From Natrarchaeobius oligotrophus (GTDB lineage Archaea > Halobacteriota > Halobacteria > Halobacteriales > Natrialbaceae), in NCBI RefSeq assembly GCF_003841465.1, contig NZ_REFZ01000010.1, positions 62,001 through 126,000 on the forward strand: a stretch of 64,000 bases of DNA, read 5' to 3'. Shown here piece after piece: positions 27,326 to 54,813 of the stretch. The position numbers and the translations under genes were made by a program. The notes beneath the pieces are model-generated. The model was not told the DNA's origin, searched no databases, and saw nothing but the letters and a program-made list of their open reading frames with translations. Each line of letters opens with the position of its first letter. Within the stretch, counting starts at the first letter, position 1.

Positions 27326-28687
27326 TTAGTCGCCGCTCTCGAACTGGTAGAAGACGTCCGAGAACTCGCCGCCGTCGTCCTCGCCGAGCACCCACGGCGC
27401 GATGCTGTACATCCCCTTCTCGTTGGCGTAGTCGACGAGCTCGCTCGCGACGTCGGTGGTGATCTCGCCGAGATACGGCGTCACGCCGACCATCGTCCAG
27501 AGTTCGTCTCGAGACTGATCGGGATACGCCTCTTCGAGGAAGTCGACCGCACTCTCGAGCGCGGACGTGATCGTCTCGAAGTTCTCGGGTTCGCCGTCGA
27601 AGTGCATCGCCATCGCCTGGACGTAGTCCAGTTCGAGGCCCTTCTCGACGGCGTCCTCGATGAACACCTTCCCGGGGGAGTGACCGGAGTCCGCGAGGCC
27701 GTCCGGGCTGGCCGAGACGGTGAAGCCGACGGTAACCTCGGGACGTTCGTCTTTGAGCAACGCGAGCGCCTCGTTGCGGATCTCGTGGAGGTCGTCGGGT
27801 CGGTCGGGATCCTCGGCGTTCTCGTCGTCGATGTCGAGGTGGGTGACGTCGAAGGTGTCGAGCAGGTCGGCGTACGCCTCCTTGAGCTCCTCGGGGTCGT
27901 CGGCGTCGCGGGCGACGACGGGGCTCTCCCAGCCGCCGATCGAGAGGCCGACCTCGATGCCTTCGTCCTGCAGCGTCTGTATCTCGTCGGCGTAGGTGTC
28001 GAGTGGCTCCTCGTCGCACTCGTGGTTCTGACAATCCGCGAGCCAGGCGGGCGAAATTTCGTCGTCACGCGTTCCGTCGCCGATGAACGACATGATGACG
28101 CGGTCGGTGCTTCGATCGAGGGTGCCGTCGACGACGTCGTACCAGGTGCCCTGGTACGGCGAGTAAATGCCGTCGGCGTCCGGGGGTTCGACGTCGCCGA
28201 CGTAGACGGTCGACTGGGTGCTGTCGCTTTCGCCGTCGACGTCTTCGACGGTGAGTTCGACGGTGTACTCGCCCTCGTCGCCGTAGGTGTGCGTGACGAC
28301 CTCGCCGGTCGCCGTCTCGCCGTCGTCGAACTCCCACTCGTAACTCTCGAGATCGCCGTCCGACTCGCTCGCGTCGAACTCGACGTCGTCGCCGGGGTCG
28401 GGACTCGAGTCGCTGACGGAGAACGACGCGGTCGGTCCCGGATCGTGCGTTTCGACTTCTTCCCAGGGGCCCCAGTCGCTTTCGCCGGGCTCGTCGCCCT
28501 GGGTCCACCACTGGGCCTCCCAGACGACGCCGTCGTAGACGACCCGGTCGCCCTCGGTGTACGTCTCGTCGGGATCCCACTCGGGATACTCTTCGGCGGC
28601 GACGGTCGCGCCGGCGACGCCGAGGCCGCCGAGCAGGATCGATAGTTTCGATGCGTTTCGTAGCAGCGTTCGTCGTGTCGGTTTCAT
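27326..28687 (-). CDS. Secreted GH18 chitinase A (CBM5/12-PKD-GH18, DxDxE type)
   Basis: The protein has 453 residues and starts MKPTRRTLLRN, a Tat signal ending near VAAEE. A CBM5/12 chitin-binding module (EYPEWDPDETYTEGDRV to AQWWTQGDEP) spans about 33-78, a PKD domain about 85-168, and the GH18 barrel about 175-453. The catalytic motif is HLDIDDE with Glu289 as acid and Asp285/Asp287 before it; this DxDxE form, followed by RNEALALL, resembles Pyrococcus ChiA-like GH18 domains (cd06543 type) rather than DGxDxDWE enzymes. The catalytic half is nearly identical to gene H (40014-41378), including 158 bp of identical DNA. It lies 177 bp after gene B with no clear TATA box and may be co-transcribed with it. 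Confidence 0.92.
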   Translation of the reverse strand: MKPTRRTLLRNASKLSILLGGLGVAGATVAAEEYPEWDPDETYTEGDRVVYDGVVWEAQWWTQGDEPGESDWGPWEEVETHDPGPTASFSVSDSSPDPGDDVEFDASESDGDLESYEWEFDDGETATGEVVTHTYGDEGEYTVELTVEDVDGESDSTQSTVYVGDVEPPDADGIYSPYQGTWYDVVDGTLDRSTDRVIMSFIGDGTRDDEISPAWLADCQNHECDEEPLDTYADEIQTLQDEGIEVGLSIGGWESPVVARDADDPEELKEAYADLLDTFDVTHLDIDDENAEDPDRPDDLHEIRNEALALLKDERPEVTVGFTVSASPDGLADSGHSPGKVFIEDAVEKGLELDYVQAMAMHFDGEPENFETITSALESAVDFLEEAYPDQSRDELWTMVGVTPYLGEITTDVASELVDYANEKGMYSIAPWVLGEDDGGEFSDVFYQFESGD

Positions 28688-28864
28688 CGTATTCGTAGGT
28701 ATTTCGGGGTCTCGTTTTGCGAGCGATGCGTGACGTGTTGCGAACTGCGGGCGCACTTTGCGATCCGCGCAGCCGTTCTTCGAACGACCGAGGGATCCGC
28801 GAACTACCGCGTCGAACCGACGCGTGTCTGCGACCGAGCGTCGTGTCGGAGCGCCTCGACGAGA

Positions 28865-30643
28865 CTACTCGAGCAACGTCTCGGAGAGCGCGCTCAACAG
28901 CTCGTGATCGGGCGTGTCGTGCGACAGCGCCCACAGCATCGTGCCGCCGTAGTCGTTGTCCTTGACCCACTCCATTTTCTGCTCGACGGTCTCGGTCGTC
29001 TCGTGGGAGATCATCAGCCCCTCGTTCTCGCCCCATCCTTCGCCGGGCGAGGCCGGAACGGTCTCGTCGGGGTTGTAGCTCCAGGCGGTCACCGCCTCCT
29101 CGTCGATCGTGGTCTCCCAGCCCTCTTCGCTCAGGTCTACCTGGCTCTCGGCGTCTCCGCGAATCTCCCCGGCGAGGTCCCAGTACTCGTAGATCCCGCT
29201 GACGCTCGAGCCGCCCTCGGGGTCGGGATCGGGGAACGAGCCGTCGCCGGTGTCCTCGAACTCCTGGAAGAGACCGTCGTCTTCGCCCGTCCCGAAGTCG
29301 TCCTCGGGCGGGTCGATCCCGGCGAAGCTTCGACCGTAGAACGGGACGGCCATGTTGAGATCGTCGGGATCCCAGCCCTGGTCGACCCACCACTCGAGTG
29401 CGTACGACGCGTACCAGTCGTCGGCGTAATCGTGTGGATCGTCGTCGTTCTGGTGCAGCGGCGAGTGGTGAGCCGTGTACTCGGAGAAGCCGCCGTGATA
29501 GTCGAACGTCATGAGCGAGACGAAATCGAGGTGCTCCTGGAGCGTCTCGTGATCGAAGTCTTCGTTGTGCTCGACGTTGGCCGAGTGTGCGGCGGTGAGC
29601 CAGTACCGCTTGCCGTCTTCGTCTTCGGCTTCGTCGAGTTGCTTGCGACACTCCTCGAGCAAGAGGGCGTAGTTCTCGTGGTCTTCGTCGGGTCGGACGA
29701 CGTTGCCCTCCTCGCCCTCGAAGCCCGGATACTCCCAGTCGATGTCGATGCCGTCGAAGCCGGTCTCCCGGAGGATCTCGACCGCGTCTGAGGCGAACCG
29801 CTCGCGGTTCTCCTGGGTGTGGGCGGCGTCGGAGAAGTACTCCGAGTCGCCCCAGCCGCCGATCGAGATGAGGAAGACGACGTCGTCGTGTTCGTCGACG
29901 ATTCCCTCGAACGAGTCCTCGTGGCCGTAGCCCGCCTCGTCGGGGAACAGTAGACGCGCCTCGTGGTCGTCGCCGACGATCTCGATCGAGCCGTCCTCTT
30001 CGGGGCGCATGAACGCGTACTGGAGGTGGGTGATGTCGTCGTACGGGATGTCCTCCGGGTAATAGTCGCGCTCGTACTGGGCCCACTGCATGTAGTACGA
30101 GACGACGCGCTTGTCCGCGGGACCGGTGTCCCGATCGACGACGGAAAGCTCCTCCGTGGCGGTGTCCGTTTCACCGTCGTCGTCTTCGACGGTGAGTTCG
30201 ACCTCGTACTCGCCGTCGTCGTCGAACGCGTGCTCGACGACCTCGCCGTCTGCCGTCTCGCCGTCGCCGAACTCCCACTCGTAGCTCTCGATCTCACCGT
30301 CCGACTCGCTCGCGTCGAACTCGACGTCCTCGCCGGGCTCCGGAACCGCGGGACTTACCGAAAACGCCGCCTGCGGCCCGTCCATCCCACCGCCGTTCTC
30401 ACAGGGTCCGACGAGCGTCCAGGCTCCCTCTTCCTCGTCCGGTTCCGTCCCCTGGGACCACCACTCCGCCTCGTAGAGGTCGCCCTCGAAGACGACCCGA
30501 TCGCCGCCGGTGTAGGCGGTGTCGGCGTCCCAGTCGGGGTAATCGCTACAGTCGTCTGCTGTCGCGCCGGTGGCGGTCGCACCGAGTCCGAGCGCGGACA
30601 GCGCCGATGCCTTCCACAGAACGTTTCGTCTGGTTTCTTTCAT
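28865..30643 (-). CDS. Secreted GH18 chitinase B (CBM5/12-PKD-GH18)
   Basis: The protein has 592 residues. A Tat signal (KETRRNVLWKASALS) is followed by a CBM5/12 module with YPDWDADTAYTGGDRV and AEWWSQGTEP (about 34-78), a PKD domain (about 90-175) and a canonical GH18 domain (about 183-592). The catalytic motif FDGIDIDWE carries the proton donor Glu304 with Asp300 and Asp302. The SLMTFDYHGG and VPFYGRSF strands line the substrate cleft as in processive bacterial ChiA-like chitinases. Its first 203 bp are almost identical (four mismatches seen) to the start of gene E, showing recent duplication or conversion. Confidence 0.95.
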   Translation of the reverse strand: MKETRRNVLWKASALSALGLGATATGATADDCSDYPDWDADTAYTGGDRVVFEGDLYEAEWWSQGTEPDEEEGAWTLVGPCENGGGMDGPQAAFSVSPAVPEPGEDVEFDASESDGEIESYEWEFGDGETADGEVVEHAFDDDGEYEVELTVEDDDGETDTATEELSVVDRDTGPADKRVVSYYMQWAQYERDYYPEDIPYDDITHLQYAFMRPEEDGSIEIVGDDHEARLLFPDEAGYGHEDSFEGIVDEHDDVVFLISIGGWGDSEYFSDAAHTQENRERFASDAVEILRETGFDGIDIDWEYPGFEGEEGNVVRPDEDHENYALLLEECRKQLDEAEDEDGKRYWLTAAHSANVEHNEDFDHETLQEHLDFVSLMTFDYHGGFSEYTAHHSPLHQNDDDPHDYADDWYASYALEWWVDQGWDPDDLNMAVPFYGRSFAGIDPPEDDFGTGEDDGLFQEFEDTGDGSFPDPDPEGGSSVSGIYEYWDLAGEIRGDAESQVDLSEEGWETTIDEEAVTAWSYNPDETVPASPGEGWGENEGLMISHETTETVEQKMEWVKDNDYGGTMLWALSHDTPDHELLSALSETLLE

Positions 30644-31036
30644 GATCGTGGATACTGGTACGGGATGTCGTCACCCGAACGGTCGAACGCGCGGGTAGCT
30701 GCCCTCGTACCGTAACGCCTCGTGCGAAGCGCTACCAAATGTCTAACTCCATCGGTAATAAATCTGTACATTCAAGATAGTATTTAATACACTGAGAGAA
30801 GAGTAATCGAGAGAATCGTAAGTAAAACAATAACATTTGCGGTGATTTCCCGACGCGATTCGCGGAAAGCGAAAGGCCGATTCCGGCAGTTCGTCGCTCG
30901 AGACAGTCTCTCGATTCGATCGCAGTTCGGACGGGGACCGCCGTCTCCCCGGTAGACGATGGGTGACGACGATCGGAAAGCGACGGGTTGCGATGGCGAT
31001 GGAAAGCGGTCGCCGTCGGAAGACGACGACAAACGT
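30644..31036 (-). promoter_or_regulatory. Promoter and leader region of chitinase gene B
   Basis: ATTTATTA on the minus strand (30756-30763) is a good TATA box about 115 nt before the ATG, predicting a leader near 90 nt. The flanking sequence from AAGCGCTACC (30727) to the TATA box is similar to the region upstream of gene E (36058-36095), where the same two elements are 30 instead of 29 bp apart. Nothing coding was found in the rest of the gap. Confidence 0.6.
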
Positions 31037-32035
31037 TCAGGAATTGAACTCGTTGAACGTGTGTGAGAACTCGAAGTCGTCCTGTTCGATGCCGCTGCAC
31101 TCCGCATCGACGGAGCCGTCCGGACAGTCGCCGTTGTCACGTTCGACCGACCAGAACGACAGGAGTCCGATATCGTTGTCCTGGGCGTACGACAGTACCT
31201 CAACAGCGTCTTCCGGATAGAACGCGCCGCCGACGTCGTTTTCGCCGATCATCGGCGTGATGCCGATCATGTTGTAGAGTTCGTCGTCGTCCCTGTCGGG
31301 GAACCACTCGGTTAGCTGATCGTGCGTGCTCTCGGCGGTCGAAATGACTGCGTCCGCATCCGGCGGAATCCAGCCGTAGTTCATCGTCATCGGGTTGACC
31401 CAGTGGATGTCGACGCCGTGGTCGATCGCGCTGTCGATGATGTGCTCGTCCATCACCCCCTGGGTGCTCGCGCGAACGGTGTAGGAGACCTTGACCTCCG
31501 ACCGACGATCCTGGAGGATCGACAGCGCCTCGTTTCGCAGATCGATCTCTGCTTGCGATCCGCCCTCGTCGTCGATGTCGATGTACGGGCTTCCGTACTC
31601 GTCGACGACGAACTCGAAGGCGTCGGCGAGCTCGTCCGGATCGTCGTAGTCGGAGACGAGATAGTTACCGATCGCTCCGCCGTAGGAGATGACGACTTCA
31701 CCGCCGTCGTCCCGAAAGTTCTCGATCTGATCGTCGAGTTTGCTCTCGCCGACGACGTAGTCCGGATCGCCGTCCCAGGCCGGGGTTCCGTCGCCGGTTC
31801 CCAGGACGAACGCCAGGTGAAGGTACGGCGTCTCGGCCAGATCGGACCACTTCGACGGCCCGTCGTCCGGGGCCGTCGTCATGTGATGGAACGGTGCGAA
31901 CGCGTTGCTCGGGATACCGTCCGTCGTCTCGATAGTATCCTGGGCCGCTGTGGTAGTACTGATGCCGGCAGCTCCGACCGCCAGTGCCGACAGTGCCGAT
32001 GCCTTCCGCAGGACGTTTCGTCTCGTGTGTGTCAT
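31037..32035 (-). CDS. Secreted GH18 chitinase C without accessory modules
   Basis: The protein has 332 residues from MTHTRRNVLRK, a Tat signal ending near TTTAAQ. Unlike every other gene of the array it has neither CBM5/12 nor PKD; the GH18 barrel follows the signal almost directly. The catalytic motif YIDIDDE has Glu157 as acid (DxDxE type), followed by RNEALSIL and the NPMTMNYG strand. A longer frame upstream reaches 32239 but is arginine-rich and crosses the leader. Lacking a binding domain, it probably works on soluble oligosaccharides or on already opened chitin. Confidence 0.92.
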   Translation of the reverse strand: MTHTRRNVLRKASALSALAVGAAGISTTTAAQDTIETTDGIPSNAFAPFHHMTTAPDDGPSKWSDLAETPYLHLAFVLGTGDGTPAWDGDPDYVVGESKLDDQIENFRDDGGEVVISYGGAIGNYLVSDYDDPDELADAFEFVVDEYGSPYIDIDDEGGSQAEIDLRNEALSILQDRRSEVKVSYTVRASTQGVMDEHIIDSAIDHGVDIHWVNPMTMNYGWIPPDADAVISTAESTHDQLTEWFPDRDDDELYNMIGITPMIGENDVGGAFYPEDAVEVLSYAQDNDIGLLSFWSVERDNGDCPDGSVDAECSGIEQDDFEFSHTFNEFNS

Positions 32036-32461
32036 GGTTCGTATCTCGTGGTGAGTTCGGCGTTGCACAGCGCTCGCTGTGTGGACGTCCCGATCGCGCG
32101 ATGATCCGACACAGCCGTCGGCGATGCGATCCGACCGCGGACAGCTATCGAGAGACCACCGGCGACAGAGTCGAGGCGTTCCCGTGTATTCCGTCCGTGC
32201 CGATCGTGCGTCGAGCCCAACCGACGTGCCAGTTGGCACCCCGTTCGTCTGCTCGCGACTCGTTCAATGACCCTATTTTGTTCGACGCCACATTATTCAT
32301 CAAAGGCTACAAATAAAATGCTTTTTGTCATTTCAACTCGATCAATACGTTAATTCATCGTGATTATTTTTGGTTGTAACCAGTCGGTATTGGATATGGT
32401 TCGAGCCGACGCGAACGGGCACCGAAACGCGTCAGTGAGCGTCGACGACGGTGAAACGCGG
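32036..32461 (-). promoter_or_regulatory. Promoter and long leader region of chitinase gene C
   Basis: A minus-strand TATA-like CATTTTATTTG (32309-32320) lies about 280 nt before the ATG, so the leader would be roughly 250 nt. The remaining DNA down to gene D is AT-rich near 32330-32390 and contains no gene. Confidence 0.45.
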
Positions 32462-33700
32462 TCATTGATCGTCGATACCGCCGAAGATAGTCGAAAACTC
32501 GAACGGCTCCTGCTCGATCTGGCTGCTCTCGAACAGCGCGCTCCCCTCGCCGTCGTCGCGGATCAACTCCCAGAACGAGAGCCACCTGACGCCGGTATCC
32601 GTGGCCTGCTCGAGGACGTACTGGGCATCCTCCTGGGAGAAGACGTTCTCTTCGACGTCGTTCTGTCCGATCATCGGCGTGATACCGATCATATTCCAGC
32701 GCTCGGCGTCCGACTTCTCGGGCCAGAGTTCGCCGAGCTGGTTCTGAACGTTCTCGGCGCACTCGAAAACCGTCTCCCCGTTCAGTTCGAAGTCGGCACC
32801 GTAGTTCATCGTCATCGGATTGACGACGTCGATTTCGACCCCCTTTTCCGCGGCGTCCTCGAGGACGAACAAGACGTCGTTGTCGTCGTGAGTCGGCAAT
32901 CCCTCCGGCAGTGCGGGGAGCGTGTACGAGATCTCCACGTCGGGATAGTCCGCCTGCAACAGCGCGAGCGCGTCGTTTCGCCGCTCGATGACCGCCCTGC
33001 CGTCGCGAATGTGTTGTTCCTCGTCGAAGTCGATAAACGACGCGTCGGTGGCCTCGATCACCGCTTCGTAGTGATCCCGTAGCTCGGTCGCGTCGTCCGT
33101 CGCCTCGGCGAGATACGTTCCGTCGAGGCCGCCGAAGGAGACGACGACCTCCCCGTCTTCCTGCTCGCGCAAGTCCGAGATCTGTCCTTCCACGTCGATC
33201 CAGCCGACCGACTCGCCGACGGGAACGTCGCCCGCCCAGGCCGGCTCGCCGTCGTCGCCCGCGAGGACGAACGCGACCGTGAAGTATCGCGTCCCGGCGG
33301 GCTCGACGTACTCGATCAGCTCGTCGTGGCCGTCGAGCGTCACGTCGACGTACGGGGCGAAAAAGTGCTCCGGGAGGTCGCCGGCCGAGGGAACGTCGTC
33401 GTCCTCGTCACCATCGTCGCCACCGTCGTCGCTCTCGTCATCATCCTCGTCCTCGCAGGGAGCGGTCTCCTGCCAGGGGCCCCAGTCGTTCGCGCCGGGT
33501 TCGTCGCCCTGGGTCCCCCACTGGGCTTCCCAGACGGTGTCCTGGTGGACGACCCGATCGTCGCCGCCGTAGACAGTGTCAGGTTCCCACTCGAGGAGGT
33601 CGTCGCAGTCCTCGGTCGCCGATGCGGTACCGCTTGCACCGATCGCCAGCGCGGAGATCGCCGATGCCGTCGCGAGTATCGATCGTCGAGTTCGTTTCAT
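32462..33700 (-). CDS. Secreted GH18 chitinase D (CBM5/12-acidic linker-GH18)
   Basis: The protein has 412 residues and starts with a Tat signal (KRTRRSILATASAIS). A CBM5/12 module spans about 34-82 (LLEWEPDTVYGGDDRV; AQWGTQGDEP, with one Trp of the usual WW pair changed to Gly). Instead of PKD there is a linker of almost pure Asp/Glu/Gly at about 85-103. The GH18 barrel fills 108-412. The catalytic motif FIDFDEE carries Glu228, with Asp224 and Asp226; the NDALALLQADYP helix and VNPMTMNYG strand fit Pyrococcus ChiA-like domains. Confidence 0.93.
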   Translation of the reverse strand: MKRTRRSILATASAISALAIGASGTASATEDCDDLLEWEPDTVYGGDDRVVHQDTVWEAQWGTQGDEPGANDWGPWQETAPCEDEDDDESDDGGDDGDEDDDVPSAGDLPEHFFAPYVDVTLDGHDELIEYVEPAGTRYFTVAFVLAGDDGEPAWAGDVPVGESVGWIDVEGQISDLREQEDGEVVVSFGGLDGTYLAEATDDATELRDHYEAVIEATDASFIDFDEEQHIRDGRAVIERRNDALALLQADYPDVEISYTLPALPEGLPTHDDNDVLFVLEDAAEKGVEIDVVNPMTMNYGADFELNGETVFECAENVQNQLGELWPEKSDAERWNMIGITPMIGQNDVEENVFSQEDAQYVLEQATDTGVRWLSFWELIRDDGEGSALFESSQIEQEPFEFSTIFGGIDDQ

Positions 33701-34070: not shown

Positions 34071-35819
34071 TCAGACGTTCTCGAGGATGGTATCGAGCAA
34101 CGTGTCGTTCCAGTCCTGGGCGAGTTCCCAGAACATCACGCCCTGCATGCCGCGTTCTTTGGCGAACTCGACTTTCGCCTCGATGGCGTCCTCGTCGTCG
34201 TAGCTGATGAGGATCCCCTCGTCCTCGTTGACGAGGTACGGCACTTCACCGGGTTCGTGACGGTTGACCTCCCAATCGTCGTCGTCGCGCATGTTCTCCT
34301 CGATATCGCCGAAGTCGAACGCGCCGGTCGCGTCCTCGTCGTCCTCGAGGATGTGATGCCAAGTTCCCTCCGGGAGGCTATCGAAGTTGCCGTAGAGGTC
34401 GATGCTGCCGAAGCTCGACTGGAATCCGCGGCCGTAGAACGGCATGCCGAGCACGAGTTCGTCGTACTCCGCGGGGTCGGCCGGCGGATACTCCCACTGG
34501 CCGGGCCAGTAGCCCTCCTCGCCGTGGTCGCCGGCGTACAGTTCGTCGACGGCGTACTCGACCCAGTACTGTTCGCCGTCCTCGTAGCCGGCCTCGGCGG
34601 TCGCTTCGTTGTCGGTGGGATGGACGTCGGGGCCGTACAGCGGCGCGTTCAGGCCGGCGGAGTCCATCCACTCGCCGGTGAAGTCGTAGGCCATGACGTA
34701 CACCGAGTCGCAGATCTCGCCGATCTGATCGTGTCGGAGGCCGCCCGCGTTCCAGTCGGAGCCGCCGTTTGCCACCGACAGGTAGTAGTAGGTGTCGTCC
34801 TCGTCGGCCGCCTCGTCGAGCGCCTCGCGCAGGTCCTCGAGCAAGAGGACGTGGTTCTCGTAATCGTCGTCGTTGCCACACTGGCACTCGCCCTGTTCGG
34901 GGCCGGGATGTTCCCAGTCGATGTCGACGCCGTCGAAGTTGTACTCGCGCATCAACTCGACGCAGTTCTGTGCGAACGTCTCCCGCAGGTCGGGATCGGC
35001 GGCGACGACGTGGAAATGTTCGGACATGGTCCAGCCGCCGACCGAGAGGTGGAACCGACAGTCGACGTCGTCGGCCAGTTCCGCGAACGCCTCCAGATTC
35101 TCCTCGTCGGACTGGCCGTCGACGTCGAACTCGGTGTCCGGATCCGTCGGCGGGAAGACGTTGCCGTCCTCGTCGAGATCGATGAACGCGTACAGCACGT
35201 CCGTGATCTTGTCGAACGGCACGTCCTCGGGGTAGTAGTCCTGTTCCTCGTTGGCCTTCCAGCCGGGGTAGTAGCCGACGACCTTGAAGTCGTCGTCGGG
35301 ACCCTCGAGCTCCTCGAGAACCTCGACGACGACCGAGGCGGTGTCGGTTTCGCCATCGACGTCTTCGACGGTGAGTTCGACCTCGTACTCGCCCTCGTCG
35401 TCGAAGGTGTGTTCGACGGCCTCGCCGTCTGCCGTCTCGCCGTCGCCGAACTCCCACTCGTAGGAGTCGATCTCTCCCTCGGAGTCGGAGGCGTCGAACT
35501 CGATCTCGTCACCGACTTCGACGCGATCGATACTCGCGTCGAAGCGGGCGACGAGTTCGTCGTCATCGTCGTCCTCGCAGGATCCGACGAGCGTCCATAC
35601 GTCCTCGCCGGCGTCGGGTTCCGTCCCCTGGGACCACCACTCCGCCTCGTAGAGGTCGCCCTCGAAGACGACCCGATCGCCGCCGGTGTAGGCGGTGTCG
35701 GCGTCCCAGTCGGGGTAATCGCTACAGTCGTCTGCTGTCGCGCCGGTGGTGGTCGCACCGAGTCCGAGCGCGGACAGCGCCGATGCCTTCCACAGAACGT
35801 CGCGTCTGGTTTCTTCCAT
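34071..35819 (-). CDS. Secreted GH18 chitinase E (CBM5/12-PKD-GH18), mosaic of B and N
   Basis: The protein has 582 residues from MEETRRDVLWK (Tat). CBM5/12 is at about 34-78, PKD at about 88-170, and canonical GH18 at about 180-582. The motif FDGVDIDWE has Glu303. A cysteine pair in GECQCGNDDD follows the active-site loop. The N-terminal 203 bp match gene B (four mismatches seen), whereas the GH18 domain matches gene N nearly throughout (for example the DIEENMRDDDDWEVNRHE stretch). It is therefore a mosaic. The gene is preceded by a leader of about 250 nt. Confidence 0.95.
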   Translation of the reverse strand: MEETRRDVLWKASALSALGLGATTTGATADDCSDYPDWDADTAYTGGDRVVFEGDLYEAEWWSQGTEPDAGEDVWTLVGSCEDDDDDELVARFDASIDRVEVGDEIEFDASDSEGEIDSYEWEFGDGETADGEAVEHTFDDEGEYEVELTVEDVDGETDTASVVVEVLEELEGPDDDFKVVGYYPGWKANEEQDYYPEDVPFDKITDVLYAFIDLDEDGNVFPPTDPDTEFDVDGQSDEENLEAFAELADDVDCRFHLSVGGWTMSEHFHVVAADPDLRETFAQNCVELMREYNFDGVDIDWEHPGPEQGECQCGNDDDYENHVLLLEDLREALDEAADEDDTYYYLSVANGGSDWNAGGLRHDQIGEICDSVYVMAYDFTGEWMDSAGLNAPLYGPDVHPTDNEATAEAGYEDGEQYWVEYAVDELYAGDHGEEGYWPGQWEYPPADPAEYDELVLGMPFYGRGFQSSFGSIDLYGNFDSLPEGTWHHILEDDEDATGAFDFGDIEENMRDDDDWEVNRHEPGEVPYLVNEDEGILISYDDEDAIEAKVEFAKERGMQGVMFWELAQDWNDTLLDTILENV

Positions 35820-45266: not shown

Positions 45267-45269
45267 CGG

Positions 45270-46997
45270 TCAGCCCTCCTCCCAGGGGCCCCACTCGCTG
45301 TCACCGGGTTCGTCGCCCCGGGTCCACCACTGGGCTTCCCAGACCGTTCCGTCGTGGACCACACGGTCGCCGCTCGTGTACACCTCGTCGGGGTCCCACT
45401 CGGGATACTCCGGCTCGGACTCGTCGTCCTCGACGACCGTGACCGTCTGCACCGTCTCGCCCTCCCTGTCCTCGTCGTCGACGACCACGAGCCGGACGTC
45501 GTAGCTGTCGTCGGACTCGTAGACGTGCGTGAACGTCTCGCCGCGCTCCTCGAGGCCGGGCTGAAGGTCGTAGTCCCAGAGATACTCGACGATTTCGCCC
45601 GCCGGCGCGTGAGAGGCCGATGCGTCGAAGGCGACTTCCTCGCCGACGACGGGGTCGTCCGGCTCCACCTCGAAGGCCGCGACAGGCTCTTTCTCGTCTG
45701 GCTCCTCGACCGTGATGGTGGTCGTGGCCGCGTCGGTTTCACCGCGGTCGTCGGTCACCGTCAGCTCGACGACGTACTCGTCGACCGCATCGTATGCGTG
45801 CTCGACGGTTTCGCCGTCGACCTCCGTTCCGTCACCGAGGTCCCACTCGTAGGCGACGATCTCGCCCTCGGGAGCCGAGGAGTCGCCGCCGTCGAAAGTC
45901 ACCGTCTCCTCAGGTGCAACCGCGTCGTTGCTCGCTGAGATCACCGCAACCGGATCCGGGTCCGGATCGGGGCCCGATCCCGGTGCCGGATCCGTGCGGT
46001 ACTCGCGGCTGGGTTCGCCGATGTTCGTCTCGTCGCCGACTTCCGGCGCGTCGATCAGCCCCCAGAAGGAGTGAATCGACAGCCCGAGGTACTTCTGACC
46101 GGTCTCCTCGTCGATGAACTGCTGATCGGTCGGTGGCCCTTCCTCGATCCAGTTCTCCTCGACCCAGCCGTAAAGCGCGTCCGCGTCGTCCCAGTTCCGG
46201 TTGGGATGGCCGTGCTCGTTGATCCCCTGGCCCAGCGCGAACGGCGTGTCGTAAGGCTGGGTCACCCGTCCCAGGTTGGGCCAGAAGTGCTCCATGTCGA
46301 GGTCGTAGACCATTGTACAGTAGTAGTCGAGGTTCCGATGTTCCATCACCTCCCGTACGCGGTCGTCGTCGGTGTTCCGGGCCCACATCGGGTCCTGTGA
46401 CATCGAGACGATCAGGTCGTCGGGGGCGTCGTCGAGGCGGTCGAGTATCTCGGGTTTGACGTCGTAGCGATCCCCGTTCTCGACGTTGATGTGGATGCCG
46501 TCGAAGCGTTCCTCCGGCGGGTGGTTGCCGTTCCACTCGAGGATCGACTCCGCCTGGGGCCATGCCTCCGCGGCGACCCAGCCGGCGACGCCGCCGCCGA
46601 CGAGCGGTTCGACCTGAATACCCCAATCGTGGCAGACGCGGAGGAACCGCTCGACGTCCTCGTCGGGCGCTTCCCGGACGGGCTCCTCCAGGGGCTCGTC
46701 GGCGGTCGGATCGGAGTAGTGTGGATAAAAGGTCCCGATCGAGTGGGCTTCAGCTTTGTCGAAAAACAGCTCCCACCGGCCGTCGTAGCCGTCCATCACC
46801 GTTTCGCCGTCGGCGATGATCGTGTACGGAACCCAGTCCCAGAGGCCCCGGTCGTTGAAGACGGAGTAGTCGGGATCGACGTTCGTCGCCGAAACCGACT
46901 CCCCCGTGGCCTGGACCGACGAGGTGGCAGCAACCCCGAGGGTGCCGACCGAGGCCAGCGATGCTTGCATCAGTATATCGCGGCGTGTCTGTCTCAT
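45270..46997 (-). CDS. Secreted TIM-barrel-like protein K with two PKD domains and CBM5/12
   Basis: The protein has 575 residues from MRQTRRDILMQ (Tat). Domain order is inverted relative to the other array proteins: a roughly 300-residue N-terminal domain (40-340), PKD (about 347-430), PKD (about 435-520), and a C-terminal CBM5/12 (about 527-575; AQWWTRGDEP). The N-domain is probably a glycosidase-like barrel; FDGIHINVE at 165-173 mimics GH18 DGxDxDxE, but with His169 and Asn171 in place of the two Asp residues, leaving Glu173. Strands YYCTMVYDLD and LGLSIHSFWG fit a barrel. I do not recognise the family. It is the first gene of the operon with J and I, so a chitin-related activity is likely. 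Confidence 0.8.
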   Translation of the reverse strand: MRQTRRDILMQASLASVGTLGVAATSSVQATGESVSATNVDPDYSVFNDRGLWDWVPYTIIADGETVMDGYDGRWELFFDKAEAHSIGTFYPHYSDPTADEPLEEPVREAPDEDVERFLRVCHDWGIQVEPLVGGGVAGWVAAEAWPQAESILEWNGNHPPEERFDGIHINVENGDRYDVKPEILDRLDDAPDDLIVSMSQDPMWARNTDDDRVREVMEHRNLDYYCTMVYDLDMEHFWPNLGRVTQPYDTPFALGQGINEHGHPNRNWDDADALYGWVEENWIEEGPPTDQQFIDEETGQKYLGLSIHSFWGLIDAPEVGDETNIGEPSREYRTDPAPGSGPDPDPDPVAVISASNDAVAPEETVTFDGGDSSAPEGEIVAYEWDLGDGTEVDGETVEHAYDAVDEYVVELTVTDDRGETDAATTTITVEEPDEKEPVAAFEVEPDDPVVGEEVAFDASASHAPAGEIVEYLWDYDLQPGLEERGETFTHVYESDDSYDVRLVVVDDEDREGETVQTVTVVEDDESEPEYPEWDPDEVYTSGDRVVHDGTVWEAQWWTRGDEPGDSEWGPWEEG

Positions 46998-47368: not shown

Positions 47369-48991
47369 TCAGTTCCCGAATCGATTCTTCATATCGAGCG
47401 TCTCGACCAGTTCCAGGTTCCGGTCGATGCTGTCCATCTCCTCGCGGAACTCGACGTGACAGGTGTCGAGCATCACCTCGAGCAGGTCGTCGTAGGGCCA
47501 GTCGTACTGGCTGGGGCCGGTGACGTTGTTGTAGGTACAGGAGAACTTCTGGTTGGGATAGAGCGTCCGGTACAGATAGGGGTTGTTGTGCATCGCCAGC
47601 CGGATGCCGTACGCCGACAGCGGCGCGTCGGTTCCTTCGAAAACACCCGGTTTGGCGTCGTCCGGCAACGCTACCTCGATGACGTCGCGCTGTGGATGAC
47701 CCACGGAGTAGTTCTTCCGCTGGGCGTTGTCGTAGGAGAACTGATCCAGCCCGGTGGCCTCCTTCGACGGGCCGACCCACCAGATGATCGTACCACACAG
47801 CAACAGCGGTACGTCGGTGAGGTTCTCGAAGACCAGCGCCATGTCGAACTGCCAGCCGTCACCGTGGAGTTCCGCGGTGGCCTCGAGCGGCGCGTTCGCC
47901 GTGAAGCCGTCGCCGAGGGACTCGCCCGTGAGCGGGTGGACCTTGTCGATGGTGGCGTCGATGATCGGATTGTCCGTGTTGGCGTACTGGCTGTCGCTGA
48001 CGCCGTCGCTCCAGTCGTCGCGTTCGTGTGCCTGGTCGTGAACCAGATCGAACTCGTCGCCTCGCGGCCACTCGTCCTGGACGAACACCGACGGATCGTT
48101 CGTCGCCGAGACCGGATCCGTCTGGGCCGTGAGACCGCCGCTCCGTCCGCTTCCGTCGTTGAACGGGATGTCTTCGGTCTCTTCGGCCAGGCCCGCCAGC
48201 CACGCCATGATCCGCGCGGAGTTCTCTCGCGACACGCCGTCGTCGTCGAAGCGCTGGACCAACTCGAGTCCCCGGTCGCCGAGCGCGTCGAGTTCCATCG
48301 AGCCGTCCCCGGCGTTGCTCTCGATCGCGTCGACGTCGGCGCCGAACTCGGTGGCGTCCGGGTGCAACTCGTTCTCGAGTAGCCCGGGGACGCCGCCTTC
48401 GGACTCTCTCGGGAAGAAGATTCGGTCGTACTCCGGGTAGAACTCCTCGAGGGTGGTGTCGGCTGTGACGTCGCTCTCGGGGTCGTCCTCCTCGTCGACA
48501 GTAACGGTCGTCGAATCGGTGTCGGTTTCGTCGTCGACGTCGGTAACGGTGAGTTCGACCTCGTATTCGCCTTCCTCGTCGTAGGAGTGGGTGACGCTCT
48601 CGCCGCTCGCTTCCGTGCCGTCGCCGAGGTCCCACGCGTAGCTGTCGATCTCGCCGTCCGACCCGCTCGCGTCGAACTCGATCTCGTCGCCGGGTTCGGG
48701 GCTCGGGTCGCTGACGGAGAAGCTTGCGGTTACGTCTTCGTTACCGTTGTCATCTTCGTCGACCTCCTCCCAGGGACCCCACCCGTTCGCGCCGGGTTCG
48801 TCACCCTGCGTCCACCACTGGGCCTCCCATATCGAGCCGTCGTGGGTGACGCGGTCGCCGTCCGTGTAGACGACGTCGGGATCCCATTCGGGGTACTCCT
48901 CTGCACTGACCGTCCCGGTAACGCTGAGACCGGCCAGACCCAGAGAGAGTGTCGATGCGTTGTGCAGTATCGTTCGGCGTGTTCGTTTCAT
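47369..48991 (-). CDS. Secreted chitin-binding protein L with unknown C-terminal domain
   Basis: The protein has 540 residues from MKRTRRTILHN (Tat). CBM5/12 lies at about 31-76 (YPEWDPDVVYTDGDRV; AQWWTQGDEP) and PKD at about 86-168. Residues about 175-540 are a domain I cannot assign: no DxxDxDxE, no N-terminal histidine brace of an LPMO, and no S8 triad. It contains conserved-looking Trp/Cys segments (LLCGTIIWWVGPS; QKFSCTYNN; LDTCHVEF), two histidine-rich stretches (VHDQAHERDDW) and a C-terminal amphipathic helix. Because the same signal-CBM-PKD front end delivers chitinases, a novel chitin-active or chitin-associated function is likely, but this is inference from architecture. Confidence 0.8.
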   Translation of the reverse strand: MKRTRRTILHNASTLSLGLAGLSVTGTVSAEEYPEWDPDVVYTDGDRVTHDGSIWEAQWWTQGDEPGANGWGPWEEVDEDDNGNEDVTASFSVSDPSPEPGDEIEFDASGSDGEIDSYAWDLGDGTEASGESVTHSYDEEGEYEVELTVTDVDDETDTDSTTVTVDEEDDPESDVTADTTLEEFYPEYDRIFFPRESEGGVPGLLENELHPDATEFGADVDAIESNAGDGSMELDALGDRGLELVQRFDDDGVSRENSARIMAWLAGLAEETEDIPFNDGSGRSGGLTAQTDPVSATNDPSVFVQDEWPRGDEFDLVHDQAHERDDWSDGVSDSQYANTDNPIIDATIDKVHPLTGESLGDGFTANAPLEATAELHGDGWQFDMALVFENLTDVPLLLCGTIIWWVGPSKEATGLDQFSYDNAQRKNYSVGHPQRDVIEVALPDDAKPGVFEGTDAPLSAYGIRLAMHNNPYLYRTLYPNQKFSCTYNNVTGPSQYDWPYDDLLEVMLDTCHVEFREEMDSIDRNLELVETLDMKNRFGN

Positions 48992-49368
48992 GATTGTGAG
49001 TTTCCGGGGTAGTAGCTCTCGTTCGTCGGAACGATCGTGCGCTCGGATGCGCCACCGTCCGTACCGAACGACGGCGTTCCGACCGGCATCGGACCGGCGA
49101 GCGTCGTCGTCCCCATCGTGGAATAGCAGGTGACGAGTTCTGACGAACTCGATCCCGTCGGTTGGTGGCCGCATACGTCGTGATCGTCGACCCGAGCACA
49201 GCGATGTTTTATCTTCAATATGGTAAAATAATTACGGTAAATGTAATTAGATCATTACATATTTCGCTAGCTTCTACTCGTTCCCTGGGGAACCGATGGC
49301 TCGACAGGGACGAAAACGCACGGTTCACCGCGGGCGGGCTCGTAACCGACGCGAAGCTGCGCGTCGGC
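48992..49368 (-). promoter_or_regulatory. Promoter region of gene L
   Basis: AT-rich DNA at 49203-49260 includes TTATTTTACC on the minus strand (49222-49231), about 235 nt before the ATG. This would give a leader of about 210 nt. The rest is featureless. Confidence 0.4.
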
Positions 49369-50865
49369 TTACGGTTCTAATGCGTCGTTGACCGCGTCGA
49401 CGAGCGTCTCGTTCGGATCGTGGCCCGACGCCCAGTACATCAGCGGATGGTCGTGTTCGGCAGCGTACTCGGCTTTGAGGCGGATCGACTCCTCGTCATC
49501 GTAGCCGAGCAGGTTCTCACCGTCGAACCGCCACGGCACCTTGGCCTCGGCGTCCCAGAATCGGTCGTAATCGTCGAACTGCTCCTGAATCTCCGGATAC
49601 GACGGAACGGCACCGGCGTCGGAAAACGGCTGGAACAGTCCGTCGTTCTCGTCGCGTTCGACGCCCGCGTACTCCCGTCCGTAAAACGCCAGGCCGAGGA
49701 CGAGGGCGCGTTTCGGCCACCCCTGGTCCAGCATGTACGTCATCGTGTTGTGGACCGACTTATCGGTCGGCGACTCCGGATTCGAGTACAACGGCGCGTT
49801 GTGATTTGTGTACTCGACCCAGTCCAGTCCGGGCGAGTGCATGTCGTAGGTCATCATCTTCGCGAAGTCGAGCACGTCGGCCAGAGCGTCGTGCTCGAGG
49901 ATCTCGAGGTGTTCCTCGTGAGCCGAAAGCGCCGCCGTGAGGTAGTATTCGGTACCGTCCTCCGCGCCAGCGTCGTCGAACTGTCGTCGACACTCGGCCA
50001 GCAGCGCCGTGAAGTTCTCGGGGTCGTCGTCGTAGGAAATGAGATCGTCGGGACCGAACGGACCGGGATACTCCCAGTCGATGTCGATCCCGTCGAGGTC
50101 GTGTTCGCGCATGAGCTCGACGCACTCGCTCGCGAACCGTTCGCGACTCTCGGCGTCGGCCGCGGTCTGTGGGAATCCGTCGGAGTTGCCCCAGCCGCCG
50201 ATCGACAACAACGTCACCGCGCCGTCGACGCCGCCGACGTCCCACGGTGCCGACACCGATCCGTCGGCCGAGACGTCACCGAACGTTTGGATGACGTGCG
50301 TGACCTTCTCGGCGGGCGCAGGGCCCGCGAACTCGTAGGCCATGACCGGGTGCTCTCCGCCAGGCCAGCCTTCGTCGTCCTCGTCGACCGTAACGACGGT
50401 TTCGGTGCTGTTCCGGTCACCGTCGATGCCGACGACGGTCAACGTGACGTCGTACTCACCCTCGTCCTCGTAGGTGTGGGTGACGACCTCGCCTTCGGTC
50501 TCGGTTCCGTCGCCGAGGCCCCACTCGTAGCGTTCGATCTCGCCGCTCGAGTCGGAGCCGTCGAGGGTGATTTCGTCGCCGGGATCGGGGCTCGCGTCGG
50601 AGACGTCGATCACGGCGTCCAGGTCGGGCTCGGCATCTTCGACCTCGTCCCAGGGCCCCCACTCGGTTTCTCCGGGCTCGTCGCCTCGGGTCCACCACCT
50701 GGCCTCCCAGATGGTTCCCTCGTGGACGACTCGGTCGCCGGACTCGTAGACCTCGTCCGGATCCCATTCGGGATACTTCGTGGCGACGCTGGTGGCACTA
50801 GCGCAGAGCAACAGTGCTGTTATTGACGATGCTGTACCGAGTACGGTACGTCGAGTTCGTTTCAT
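49369..50865 (-). CDS. Secreted GH18 chitinase M (CBM5/12-PKD-GH18)
   Basis: The protein has 498 residues from MKRTRRTVLGT (Tat). CBM5/12 lies at about 30-76 (YPEWDPDEVYESGDRV; ARWWTRGDEP), PKD at about 82-165, and a compact canonical GH18 domain at about 172-498. The catalytic motif LDGIDIDWE has Glu265. The barrel is shorter than in B, E, N and O and ends GHDPNETLVDAVND. The substrate-cleft strands MMTYDMHSPG and LAFYGREYAG are present. It has its own 298-bp upstream gap, with no strong TATA box seen. Confidence 0.94.
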   Translation of the reverse strand: MKRTRRTVLGTASSITALLLCASATSVATKYPEWDPDEVYESGDRVVHEGTIWEARWWTRGDEPGETEWGPWDEVEDAEPDLDAVIDVSDASPDPGDEITLDGSDSSGEIERYEWGLGDGTETEGEVVTHTYEDEGEYDVTLTVVGIDGDRNSTETVVTVDEDDEGWPGGEHPVMAYEFAGPAPAEKVTHVIQTFGDVSADGSVSAPWDVGGVDGAVTLLSIGGWGNSDGFPQTAADAESRERFASECVELMREHDLDGIDIDWEYPGPFGPDDLISYDDDPENFTALLAECRRQFDDAGAEDGTEYYLTAALSAHEEHLEILEHDALADVLDFAKMMTYDMHSPGLDWVEYTNHNAPLYSNPESPTDKSVHNTMTYMLDQGWPKRALVLGLAFYGREYAGVERDENDGLFQPFSDAGAVPSYPEIQEQFDDYDRFWDAEAKVPWRFDGENLLGYDDEESIRLKAEYAAEHDHPLMYWASGHDPNETLVDAVNDALEP

Positions 50866-51163
50866 AGTCGTGTTCGTGGTTCGAAGAGGGTGGATGAATT
50901 CGCAGGGACGTCGACCGAATCCGGAGCGAATTCGGCCGGTGTGATGCGAAGAGCACGCTCGTCTTCTCCTCAGATCAGCCGTCGATCGGAGTGCAGCTGA
51001 TCGGCTCGGTCCCGACGAAACGCAGCCGGACGTCACGGTTGCACGTCTCGAACGCACCACGTCGAATCGGAGACGTGAGCCGCTCGAGTCGTCGTTGATT
51101 CCGCTTTGCTGAATCGGCCGACGCTCCCGCCCGCCGGGACCGCCGGCGAACTGTTCGGTCGGT

Positions 51164-52906
51164 TCAGATGTTCTGGAGGATGGTGTCGAGCAGCGTCTCG
51201 TTCCAGTCCTGGGCGAGTTCCCAGAACATCACGCCCTGCATGCCGCGTTCTTTGGCGAACTCGACTTTCGCCTCGATGGCGGCCTCGTCGTCGTAGCTGA
51301 TGAAGATCCCCTCGTCCTCGTTGACGAGATAGGGGACCTCACCCATCTCGTGACGGTTGACCTCCCAGTCGTCGTCGTCGCGCATGTTCTCCTCGATGTC
51401 GCCGAAGTCGAACGCGCCGGTCGCGTCCTCGTCGTCCTCGAGGATGTGATGCCAGGTTCCCTCGGGGAGACCGCTGTAGTTCCCGCCGAGCTGGGGGGGA
51501 CTCTGCCACTCGCCGACGGAGAAGCCGCGGCCGTAGAACGGCATGCCGAGCACGAGTTCGTCGTACTCCGCGGGGTCGGCCGGCGGATACTCCCACTGGC
51601 CGGGCCAGTAGCCCTCCTCGCCGTGGTTGCCCGCCCACAGCTCGTCGACTGAGTACTCCGCCCAGTACTGTTCGCCATCCGGGTAGACGTCACGGTCGTT
51701 CGTCGGATGCGTGTCGGGACCGTACAGCGGCGCGTTCAGGCCGATGGTGTCCATCCACTCGCCGGTGAAGTCGTAGGCCATGACGTACACCGAGTCGCAG
51801 ATCTCGCCGATCTGATCGTGCCGGAGACCACCGGCGTTCCAGTCGGAACCGCCGTTTGCCACCGACAGGTAGTAGTACTGGCCGTCCTCGTCGGCCGCCT
51901 CGTCGAGCGCCTCGCGCAGGTCTTCGAGCAAGAGGACGTGAGTCTCGTAATCGTCGTCGTTGCCGCACTGGCACTGCCCCTGTTCGGGACCGGGGTGTTC
52001 CCAGTCGATGTCGACGCCGTCGAAGTTGTACTCGCGCATCAACTCGACGCAGTTCTGTGCGAACGTCTCGCGGGTGTCCGGATCCTCTGCGACGACGTGG
52101 AAGTCGTCGGACATGGTCCAGCCGCCGACCGAGAGGTGGAACCGACAGTCGACGTCGTCGGCCAGTTCCGCGAACTCCTCCAGGTTCTCCTCGTGGCTCT
52201 GGTGTGGAATGTCGAACTCCGTCTCGTCGTCCTCGGGCGGGAAGACGTTGCCCTGTGCGTCGAGATCGATGAACGCGTACAGGACGTCGGTCACCTTATC
52301 GAAGGGGATGTCGCTCGGATAGTAGTCCTGCTCCTCGTTGGCCTTCCAGCCGGGGTAGTAGCCGACGACCTTGAAGTCGTCGCCCGGCCCCTCGATCTCG
52401 TCGGTGACGGTCAGTTCGAGCGACGCGGTGTCGGTGTCGCCGTCGGCGTCGGTCACCGTGAGTTCGACGGTGTACTCGCCCGTCTCGTCGTACGAGTGGG
52501 TGACGACCTCGCCGGAGGCCTCGGTGCCGTCGCCGAGGTCCCACTCGTACTCCTCGATGTCGCCTTCGGAGCCGGAGCCGTCGAACTCGACCTCGTCGTC
52601 GACTTCGACGCGTGTTGCACTCGCCGCGACGTTCGCTTCCAGTTCCGGCGGCTCGGGATCCGATTCGACTTCGTCCCACGGACCCCACTGGCCGCCCTCG
52701 CCGGGTTCGTCGCCCTGGGTCCACCACCGGGCCTCCCAGATCGCCCCGTCGTGGACGACCCGGTCGCCGCCAGTGTAGACCGCGTCGGGATCCCATTCGG
52801 GATACTCCTGGTCCTGTGCTGCTACCACCGAACTCGCGCCGAGTCCGGCGAATAAAATCGATGCCTTCGATGCGTCGTTCAGTAGATCACGTCGTGATCG
52901 TTTCAT
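51164..52906 (-). CDS. Secreted GH18 chitinase N (CBM5/12-PKD-GH18)
   Basis: The protein has 580 residues from MKRSRRDLLND (Tat). CBM5/12 lies at about 34-80 (YPEWDPDAVYTGGDRV; ARWWTQGDEP), PKD at about 90-170, and canonical GH18 at about 178-580. The motif FDGVDIDWE has Glu303, followed by a QCQCGNDDD cysteine insert as in gene E. The GH18 domain is nearly the same as in E, while signal, CBM5/12 and PKD differ. It lies only 92 bp after gene O and may share its transcript. Confidence 0.95.
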   Translation of the reverse strand: MKRSRRDLLNDASKASILFAGLGASSVVAAQDQEYPEWDPDAVYTGGDRVVHDGAIWEARWWTQGDEPGEGGQWGPWDEVESDPEPPELEANVAASATRVEVDDEVEFDGSGSEGDIEEYEWDLGDGTEASGEVVTHSYDETGEYTVELTVTDADGDTDTASLELTVTDEIEGPGDDFKVVGYYPGWKANEEQDYYPSDIPFDKVTDVLYAFIDLDAQGNVFPPEDDETEFDIPHQSHEENLEEFAELADDVDCRFHLSVGGWTMSDDFHVVAEDPDTRETFAQNCVELMREYNFDGVDIDWEHPGPEQGQCQCGNDDDYETHVLLLEDLREALDEAADEDGQYYYLSVANGGSDWNAGGLRHDQIGEICDSVYVMAYDFTGEWMDTIGLNAPLYGPDTHPTNDRDVYPDGEQYWAEYSVDELWAGNHGEEGYWPGQWEYPPADPAEYDELVLGMPFYGRGFSVGEWQSPPQLGGNYSGLPEGTWHHILEDDEDATGAFDFGDIEENMRDDDDWEVNRHEMGEVPYLVNEDEGIFISYDDEAAIEAKVEFAKERGMQGVMFWELAQDWNETLLDTILQNI

Positions 52907-52998
52907 CGGTGTCTGTTAGTCGCGTGTTCGTCAGTTGTCCGGTGCTGTACGATGGCCGCTCGTGCGAACGAGCGTCGGAGTCGGCGGTTCGAACGGCG

Positions 52999-54813
52999 TC
53001 AGCCGTTCAGGTTGTCCCAGAGCGTGCCGATGAGGTCACCCTCGTAGGTGTCTCCGCCGATGGCCCACAGCATCGTCCCCCCGTAGGGCGACTGCCGGAG
53101 CCACTGCATCTTGGCTTCCATCGACTCCTGGGATTCGTAGCTGATCATCTCCCGGCTGTCGGCGTTCCAGGCCCACGCGGCGACCGCGTCCTCGTCGTAG
53201 TAAACCTCCCAGTCGGGGCTGTCCAGGTCGACGGAGTTGCTCCCACCGCGGCCGTCGCCCTCGAGGTCGAACCACTCGAAGACGCCGCCAAGCTGGGAGC
53301 CGGGCTCGCCGAACGCCGGGTAGGAGCCGTCCATGCTGGCGTCCTCGCCTTCGCCCTCGAACTCCTGGAAAAGACCGTCGTCCTCGCCGGTGCCGACGTC
53401 GTCTTCGGGCGGCTGGACGTCGTCCCAGCTCCGGCCGTAGAACGGGACGGCCATGTTGAGCTGGTCGGGATCCCAGCCCTGTTCCTCCCAGTACTGGAGT
53501 GCGTACTCGGCGTTCCAGGCGTCTGCTTCCTCGAACGGATCGTCCGGGTTCGGCTTCAGCGGAGCGTGGTGGCGGGTCGTCTCCGACCAGATTCCCGCGT
53601 AGTCGAACGTCATCACCAGGATGAAGTCCAGAAGCTCCGAGAGCTTCTCGTGCTCGAGTCCGTCGTTGCCGTCCTCGACGCCTTCGACGACGTCGGGGTT
53701 GGCCGAGACCGCAGCGGTGAGCTCGTAGGGCTCGTCGCGACCGACCTCCTGGGCGTGCTCGTCCAGGCGCTCGCGCACCGTCTCGCAAAGCAACGTAAAG
53801 CGCTCCTGGTCGCCCTCGCGGACGATGTTGCCGTCGCTCGGACAGACGCTGGCGGGTTCCTCGGCGTCTTCGGACGTACAGCCGCCGCCGCCGGGGAACT
53901 CCCAGTCGATGTCGATGCCGTCCAGATTGCCCCGCTCGATCCACTCGATGCAGTCCTCGGCAAAGCGCTCCCGGTTCTCCTGGGTCAGCGCCGCGTCGGA
54001 GAAGTACCGCGAGTCGCCCCAGCCGCCGATCGACAGGACGAACTTGGTGTCGTCGTGCTCGGCGGCGTGTTCGGCGAAGGTTCCGCCCTCGACGCCCTGC
54101 CACTCCTCCTCGGCCCAGAAGGCCTGCTGGCCGTGGGAGTCGCCGACGAGGTTGACCGAGCCGTCCGACTCGGGACGGGCGAACGCGTACTGCACGTGCG
54201 TGACCTGGTCGTAGGGGATGTCCGCCGGCACGAAGTCGCGGTCGTACTGCGCCCACTGGCGGTAGTACGCGACGACGCGCTTTTCGTCCGACGATGGACG
54301 GCCTGCCGTGATCCTGATCGAGTCGGTGTCGGTGTCGCCGTCTGCGTTCTCGACGGTCAGCGTCACGTCGTACTGGCCTTCGTCGAACGAGTGCGTGACG
54401 ACCTCACCGCTTGCCTCCGTTCCGTCGCCGAACTCCCACTCGTAGGATTCGATCTCGCCTTCGGAGTCGGAGGCGTCGAACTCGACTTCGTCTCCGGGGT
54501 CCGGGAACTGATCGCTGACGGAAAACGACGCGGTCGGTCCCTCGGGCGGTTCCGGTTCGGGACCGTTGTGCTCTTCGATTTCCTCCCAGGGTCCCCACTC
54601 GTTTGCACCGGGTTCGTCGCCCTGGGTCCACCACTGGGCCTCCCAGACGTAGCCCTCGTAAATGACCCGATCACCCCCCGTGTATACGGTGTCGGGGTCC
54701 CACTCGGGATACTCGTCGCTCTCGGCAGCGACGGCACCGCTGGCTCCGATTCCGGCCAGTAGCGCGGACAGTTTCGTTGCGTTACTCAGAACGGTTCGGC
54801 GTGTTCGTTTCAT
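52999..54813 (-). CDS. Secreted GH18 chitinase O (CBM5/12-PKD-GH18)
   Basis: The protein has 604 residues. Tat signal KRTRRTVLSNATKLS, CBM5/12 (about 35-82), PKD (about 95-178), canonical GH18 (about 188-604). The catalytic motif LDGIDIDWE has Glu305. The next loop holds a Cys-rich insert (GGGGCTSEDAEEPASVC). MTFDYAGIW and VPFYGRSW are the cleft strands, as in gene B. The 5' 234 bp are nearly identical to gene F. It is the first gene of the array in transcription order. Confidence 0.95.
   Translation of the reverse strand: MKRTRRTVLSNATKLSALLAGIGASGAVAAESDEYPEWDPDTVYTGGDRVIYEGYVWEAQWWTQGDEPGANEWGPWEEIEEHNGPEPEPPEGPTASFSVSDQFPDPGDEVEFDASDSEGEIESYEWEFGDGTEASGEVVTHSFDEGQYDVTLTVENADGDTDTDSIRITAGRPSSDEKRVVAYYRQWAQYDRDFVPADIPYDQVTHVQYAFARPESDGSVNLVGDSHGQQAFWAEEEWQGVEGGTFAEHAAEHDDTKFVLSIGGWGDSRYFSDAALTQENRERFAEDCIEWIERGNLDGIDIDWEFPGGGGCTSEDAEEPASVCPSDGNIVREGDQERFTLLCETVRERLDEHAQEVGRDEPYELTAAVSANPDVVEGVEDGNDGLEHEKLSELLDFILVMTFDYAGIWSETTRHHAPLKPNPDDPFEEADAWNAEYALQYWEEQGWDPDQLNMAVPFYGRSWDDVQPPEDDVGTGEDDGLFQEFEGEGEDASMDGSYPAFGEPGSQLGGVFEWFDLEGDGRGGSNSVDLDSPDWEVYYDEDAVAAWAWNADSREMISYESQESMEAKMQWLRQSPYGGTMLWAIGGDTYEGDLIGTLWDNLNG

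Follow-up and report, generated by a model that had tools for sequence, protein, structure and literature searches.

A secreted chitin-degradation array in Natrarchaeobius oligotrophus includes an undescribed domain that probably acts on polysaccharide

Why does a haloalkaliphilic archaeon line up fifteen genes for secreted, chitin-associated proteins, and what does the one member without a recognizable main domain contribute? The question is raised by a 64,000-nucleotide stretch of the Natrarchaeobius oligotrophus genome (contig NZ_REFZ01000010.1, positions 62,001 to 126,000 of the forward strand), hereafter the window, on a contig of 154 kb in a 4.61-Mb genome of 69 contigs. Fifteen consecutive minus-strand genes span 27.5 kb of the window (27326-54813), as stated in an initial annotation of the locus made from the letters alone. 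They are named A (27326 side) to O (54813 side), and transcription runs from O to A. The array probably makes up the half of a chitin-use system that works outside the cell, grown by duplication and module exchange and including a protein, L, whose undescribed domain would act on polysaccharide. We give this overall reading a probability of roughly 75%. Directly observed are the gene content, the domains assigned, synteny, the similarity of individual modules, and the distribution and tree split of L; from these, we infer the enzyme actions of the array proteins, gene conversion as the homogenizing process and catalysis by L.

The array encodes five classical GH18 proteins, six GH18 proteins of the Pyrococcus furiosus ChiA (PF-ChiA) type, one GH20, one subtilase, one putative diverged TIM barrel and the unknown L. 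The eleven GH18 genes, correctly counted in the initial annotation, are the highest number among 149 relatives searched. Chance is excluded as the origin of the array observation. The twin-arginine (Tat) motif [STG]RRx(V/I/L)L with a hydrophobic stretch is found near the corrected start of all fifteen proteins, in agreement with the earlier claim; the assignment is a reading of the motif in the sequences. Several long open reading frames began too far upstream; with the Tat leader as a guide, their starts were moved to 28687 in A, 32035 in C, 35819 in E, 41378 in H, 46997 in K, 48991 in L and 50865 in M. Overall, the earlier proposal of an array for secreted chitin degradation that combines two types of GH18 is upheld.

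The classical GH18 proteins are B (28865-30643), E (34071-35819), M (49369-50865), N (51164-52906) and O (52999-54813), each with a Tat leader, CBM5/12, PKD and the catalytic domain. Only these five exceed the PF00704 cut-off (E-values of 5e-60 to 8e-72, 204-243 bits vs. 29.6). D298, D301, D303 and E305 of the DxxDxDxE motif are invariant, as is YGR at 459-461, assigned by motif to the YxR of the chitinase insertion domain found in GH18 subfamily A (PMC2805709). The DGxDIDWE and FYGR motifs of the Bacillus circulans ChiA1-type GH18 (1itx) are also invariant in the five proteins, which differ from ChiA1 in being haloarchaeal, apparently Tat-exported and equipped with N-terminal CBM5/12-PKD modules. 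The remaining six GH18 proteins are A (27326-28687), F (36341-37762), H (40014-41378) and J (43845-45266), all with Tat leader, CBM5/12 and PKD, as well as D (32462-33700), with a Tat leader and a marginal CBM5/12, and C (31037-32035), with a Tat leader and no binding module. PF00704 matches are sub-threshold in A and H, and absent or almost absent in C, D, F and J. The expectation that profile searches would assign the GH18 and GH20 domains was thus borne out for B, E, M, N, O and the GH20 protein I, and not for these six. However, the six proteins align together with an invariant DxDxE (D114, D116, E118), and the P. furiosus chitinase structure 2dsk is matched by C (4e-53) and H (2e-30); A, D, F and J are assigned to the type through their alignment with C and H. 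Judged by these alignments, all six are complete GH18 domains of the P. furiosus ChiA type. An interpretation of the short GH18s as truncations was rejected, as they align to the P. furiosus catalytic domain, with C near full length.

The two GH18 types had been described as alternating along the array, which we could not uphold. In transcription order, the types read 1,1,1,2,2,2,1,2,2,1,2, giving 6 runs vs. 6.5 expected, and shuffles equal or exceed this number 74% of the time, so that strict alternation is rejected. In Thermococcus kodakarensis ChiA, domain A acts as an exo- and domain B as an endochitinase, and the P. furiosus domain whose structure was solved is a close relative of B (PMC3575233). 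By analogy, an endo/exo complementarity of the two GH18 types is plausible, with the window's classical type as a possible counterpart of domain A. The P. furiosus and T. kodakarensis ChiA systems share with the window the catalytic type of six genes (2dsk) and the presence of two GH18 types. They differ in placing two domains in one or two polypeptides, whereas the window encodes eleven separate proteins with CBM5/12-PKD.

Beyond GH18, I (41628-43835) is the single GH20 recognized before (2e-83), preceded by a Tat leader, CBM5/12, PKD and a further CBM5/12. The protein G (38143-39822) had been called a chitin-binding protease; the S8 subtilase domain is firm (8e-57) and follows a Tat leader, while the CBM5/12 behind its PKD is partial and below cut-off (15.9 bits). 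With D also below (19.9 bits), twelve of the fourteen CBM5/12 (PF02839) modules originally listed exceed the cut-off (A, B, E, F, H, I, J, K, L, M, N, O), and C has no CBM5/12. PKD domains were found by Pfam in all array proteins except C and D. The protein K (45270-46997) combines a Tat leader, a diverged TIM-barrel-like domain, two PKD and a C-terminal CBM5/12. Its description as glycosidase-like receives no backing from Pfam, which finds no catalytic domain, and K has neither a PF00704 match nor the DxxDxDxE motif of GH18. A low-confidence structural model (predicted local distance difference test, pLDDT, 60; predicted template-modelling score, pTM, 0.71) does resemble glycosidase barrels of GH18, GH99 and GH84 at template-modelling (TM) scores of ~0.45-0.5. 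The motif DGIHxNxE, shared by all four relatives, retains the Glu of DxDxE with both Asp altered, and the K homologs of archaea further afield match weakly and over part of the length. K could be an altered glycosidase or a binding protein. Because the gaps between K and J (3 nt) and between J and I (9 nt) are so short, compared to 92-521 nt for all others, the three genes look like one operon with K first.

The protein L (47369-48991) starts like its neighbors with a Tat leader, CBM5/12 and PKD, and ends in a 369-aa domain (47372-48478) that appears to be undescribed. Whether searched singly or together with its family as a set of 20 members, the domain finds no match in Pfam, NCBIfam or PDB sequences, consistent with its initial listing as unknown. 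Novelty is judged against these three resources. The structural model is confident (pLDDT 83.6, pTM 0.87) and combines a helical region at the N-terminus with a beta-sandwich; a Foldseek search against PDB yielded no match spanning the domain (best TM by query ~0.24). Across 32 sequences, ~35 positions are invariant, many of them charged or His. These include His261, His297, His341, Arg254, Arg264, Asp265, Arg293, Arg304, Tyr301, Tyr307, Glu343 and Asn369, the last residue of the domain.

Homologs of L were found in 20 of the 149 genomes searched and at 29 genome loci, in many haloarchaeal genera, Herpetosiphon and Evansella. This distribution is a lower bound because the contig search used short conserved peptides. 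L is rare in bacteria, with 3 of 350 Chloroflexota genomes and Evansella alone among its 349 relatives, and plasmid records contain one homolog, annotated as hypothetical. Domain partners are CBM5/12-PKD, CBM2, CBM2 with a Cip1-like domain and, in one case, a plastocyanin-like domain. The latter homolog (genome G144, locus L006, 1-2601) is a single protein with four PKD, CBM5/12 and a plastocyanin-like domain that narrowly misses the Pfam cut-off, a marginal case that hints at redox chemistry.

The L domain follows the polysaccharide and not the host, and it exists in a chitin-linked and a cellulase-linked version. At 15 of the 29 loci, a CBM5/12 lies next to L with no GH5, GH9 or GH10 match within 10 kb; 13 of the remaining 14 loci have GH5, GH9 or GH10 genes. 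Pfam domains around the cellulose-side L are GH5, GH9 and GH10, and the Evansella cluster reads GH48-[CBM2-L]-GH5-GH5-GH9. In the L tree, the two sets part by a single change with support of 100/100, compared to a mean of 10.7 after shuffling. Host ancestry is not the cause of the split, as both sets include Natrialbaceae and Haloarculaceae, and the genome YIM A00010 carries one L of each set. Among the 149 genomes, L (20 genomes) and GH18 co-occur in 15 vs. 3.9 expected (P=5e-9).

Given the substrate tracking, the binding module that it usually carries and conserved residues that could serve in catalysis or bind metal, L very likely acts on polysaccharide in some way. L could be non-catalytic, serving as a sizeable module that binds carbohydrate or loosens fibres, or as a scaffold, that aids neighboring enzymes without chemistry. 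The beta-sandwich with weak fold matches to CBM3 modules and the constant placement of L beside other binding modules or within degradation clusters would suit such a role. However, the protein already has a dedicated CBM, the CBM3 matches extend over a small part of it (TM by query <= ~0.24), and binding modules usually retain fewer invariant positions than the ~35 of L, many of which are charged or His. We consider a non-catalytic L possible but somewhat doubtful, and lean modestly toward an enzyme rather than a binder. Several points weigh against the overall reading. The genome G003 of the same genus has kept the array and lost the L domain, leaving a leader, a CBM with a stop and a PKD, which means that L is not indispensable. 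The co-occurrence P value overstates independence because the genomes are related, and the neighborhood evidence fits a binding or loosening role equally well. Our most specific proposal, that L founds a new polysaccharide-cleaving enzyme family, possibly metal-dependent, with chitin and cellulose branches and an accessory role like that of lytic polysaccharide monooxygenases (LPMOs) despite unrelated sequence and fold, is tentative, at somewhat less than even odds.

AA10 LPMOs resemble L in being accessory, carrying a binding module and lying beside chitinases or GH48/GH9/GH5 cellulases. L as an AA10 LPMO or another known accessory enzyme was rejected, as no LPMO_10 or other Pfam match occurs in 20 members. 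There is no histidine brace of the AA10 kind either, with no invariant His at the domain start in the 32 sequences; as the domain follows leader, CBM and PKD, it lacks the N-terminal histidine of a mature domain. The same genome does encode an AA10 LPMO (PF03067, 1.7e-46) with CBM5/12 outside the window (G000:C33:19379-20245). The gene lies where a small contig ends, and the G+C of that contig is lower (51% over the portion read). Cip1, a cellulose-linked accessory protein, is fused with CBM2 and the L domain in Herpetosiphon; its Cip1-like core is a separate Pfam domain, and L has no match to it.

Comparisons with relatives suggest how the array was assembled. The order O-N-L-H recurs in loci from Halobiforma and Natrialba, O-N-A-G-L in Natrinema with Halopiger djelfimassiliensis being similar, and in Halobacterium salinarum L comes after a pair of classical GH18s (no paper was found for the H. 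salinarum locus tags tried). Within the genus, G002 shows O-N-L-H-F-B-A and G003 shows O-N-M-(L remnant)-K-I-H-G-(D remnant)-B-A-F, with 6 and 7 GH18 genes, respectively. The G003 remnants of L and D lie at locus L058 ~15200-15900 and locus L059 ~3850-4700. In the window, O, N and H are core genes. A and H, apparent duplicates, share 86.6% DNA identity over nearly their whole length. E is a chimera of a B-like 5' part (86%, 494 nt) and an N-like 3' part (86.7%, 1471 nt), the two meeting within the PKD region. The first 425 nt of O and F are 92% identical despite catalytic domains of different GH18 subfamilies.

Such similarities could reflect dosage amplification of redundant chitinases with no division of labor, as the close duplicates A/H and N/E and the survival of G002 with 6 GH18 genes might suggest. 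We consider this unlikely, since there is little sequence similarity between the two GH18 subfamilies, the GH20, the protease, K and L, and since several genera retain the core O-N-H/A-L. Module-wise comparison with G002 and G003 points to different histories for different parts of the proteins. Catalytic domains mostly track orthology (O, M, F, B and I at 87-91% to G003), with A/H and N/E as exceptions that seem to have been duplicated or converted recently, within the lineage of the window. CBMs are often closest to paralogs of the same genome. The window CBMs of O and F are 96% identical, compared to 82% for O and its G003 ortholog, and in G003 the CBMs of O, N, M and H are 88-93% identical to their closest paralog vs. 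74-82% to the window orthologs. A single substrate for all modules would lead one to expect similar amino-acid sequences, so that selection for the same chitin surface might produce this likeness. Third codon positions are equally alike though (96% for window O-F, 89% for G003 O-N), in contrast to the 61-64% between O and N orthologs of the window and G003 (64% for O). CBM copy number also shifts jointly, with two copies in O, N and H of G002 and G003 (and in M of G003) and one in the window. Selection on the protein is hence a rather improbable explanation, and the third-position identity argues for gene conversion as the homogenizing process. Signal and CBM modules appear to be homogenized within genomes while catalytic domains descend mostly vertically, a pattern that we propose as new here.

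The array itself is already known. Large Natrarchaeobius chitinase clusters with ABC transporters, CE14, GH20, S8 peptidase, IclR and galactonate dehydratase were published by Tulenkov et al. 2025 (PMC12343721), and they agree with the window in genus, cluster type and gene content. The listed strain AArcht7 (4.6 Mb, 11 GH18, 1 GH20, one GH18 without binding domains) fits the gene content of the window, in which C would be the GH18 lacking binding domains. That study regards the non-GH18 chitin-binding proteins as having no catalytic domain and the other GH18s as shortened, and its main text describes neither the L family nor module homogenization. Since the GH18 model only partly covers the PF-ChiA subfamily, this would explain the published GH18 hits that are 'approximately twofold shorter'. 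A recognition of the "reduced-length" GH18s as full PF-ChiA-type domains appears to be new.

The genes flanking the array suggest sugar uptake and handling. A sugar ABC transporter lies next to it on the minus strand (55375-60115), with an ATPase with a MalK OB fold (55375-56541) and a binding protein (58838-60115) identified by Pfam, and two permease-like genes (56750-57676 and 57673-58659) read from the sequence; its homologs were proposed to import chitobiose (PMC12343721). Pfam further identifies a mandelate racemase/muconate lactonizing family enzyme (60272-61462, plus strand), named galactonate dehydratase in the same study, a PIG-L/CE14-type N-acetylglucosamine deacetylase (61968-62684) and an IclR-family regulator (62741-63487), the latter two on the minus strand. 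No upstream motif shared by the array genes is claimed, because the CG-rich words found in 11 of 13 upstream regions (vs. <=9 in 12 crude shuffles) are typical of the base composition. Promoter and terminator scans stayed at chance level, using bacterial consensus sequences on an archaeal host. At the other end of the window, a 337-aa protein without a Pfam match (7184-8197, plus strand) adjoins a GH9 gene (8207-10168). Upstream of the GH9 gene, peptide/oligosaccharide-type ABC transporter genes (774-5909, plus strand; binding protein family 5 by Pfam, the remaining transporter genes by sequence reading) form a possible second uptake system. Between 14000 and 22000, G+C is lowered to 55-58%, and by sequence reading the genes there resemble those of DegT-type aminotransferase, NUDIX and MFS proteins and a fragment of a Cdc6-like one; the segment looks like an insertion separating two carbohydrate regions.

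Taken together, we suggest that the Tat route exports the array proteins and that N-terminal CBM5/12-PKD modules anchor most of them on chitin. The classical and P. furiosus-ChiA-type GH18s would make complementary cuts in the chitin chains and the GH20 would trim chain ends, with the subtilase G probably stripping protein or processing enzymes. The ABC transporter, deacetylase and IclR regulator beside the array might then serve to take up and handle the sugars. The array may have grown from a core of O-N-(H/A)-(G)-L through duplication and module exchange, with signal-CBM ends kept alike by gene conversion. The direct target of L would be crystalline beta-1,4 polysaccharide: chitin for the version found here, cellulose for the one found elsewhere. 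It would most likely be an enzyme that relies on His261, His297, His341 and on Arg, Asp and Tyr residues close to them. Homogenization of binding modules in an archaeon would mean that one anchor is kept across an enzyme array while the catalytic domains diverge. If L is an enzyme, the gene sets for chitin and cellulose degradation would contain a new carbohydrate-active family that the domain libraries searched do not cover and that might be useful for biomass processing at high salt and pH.

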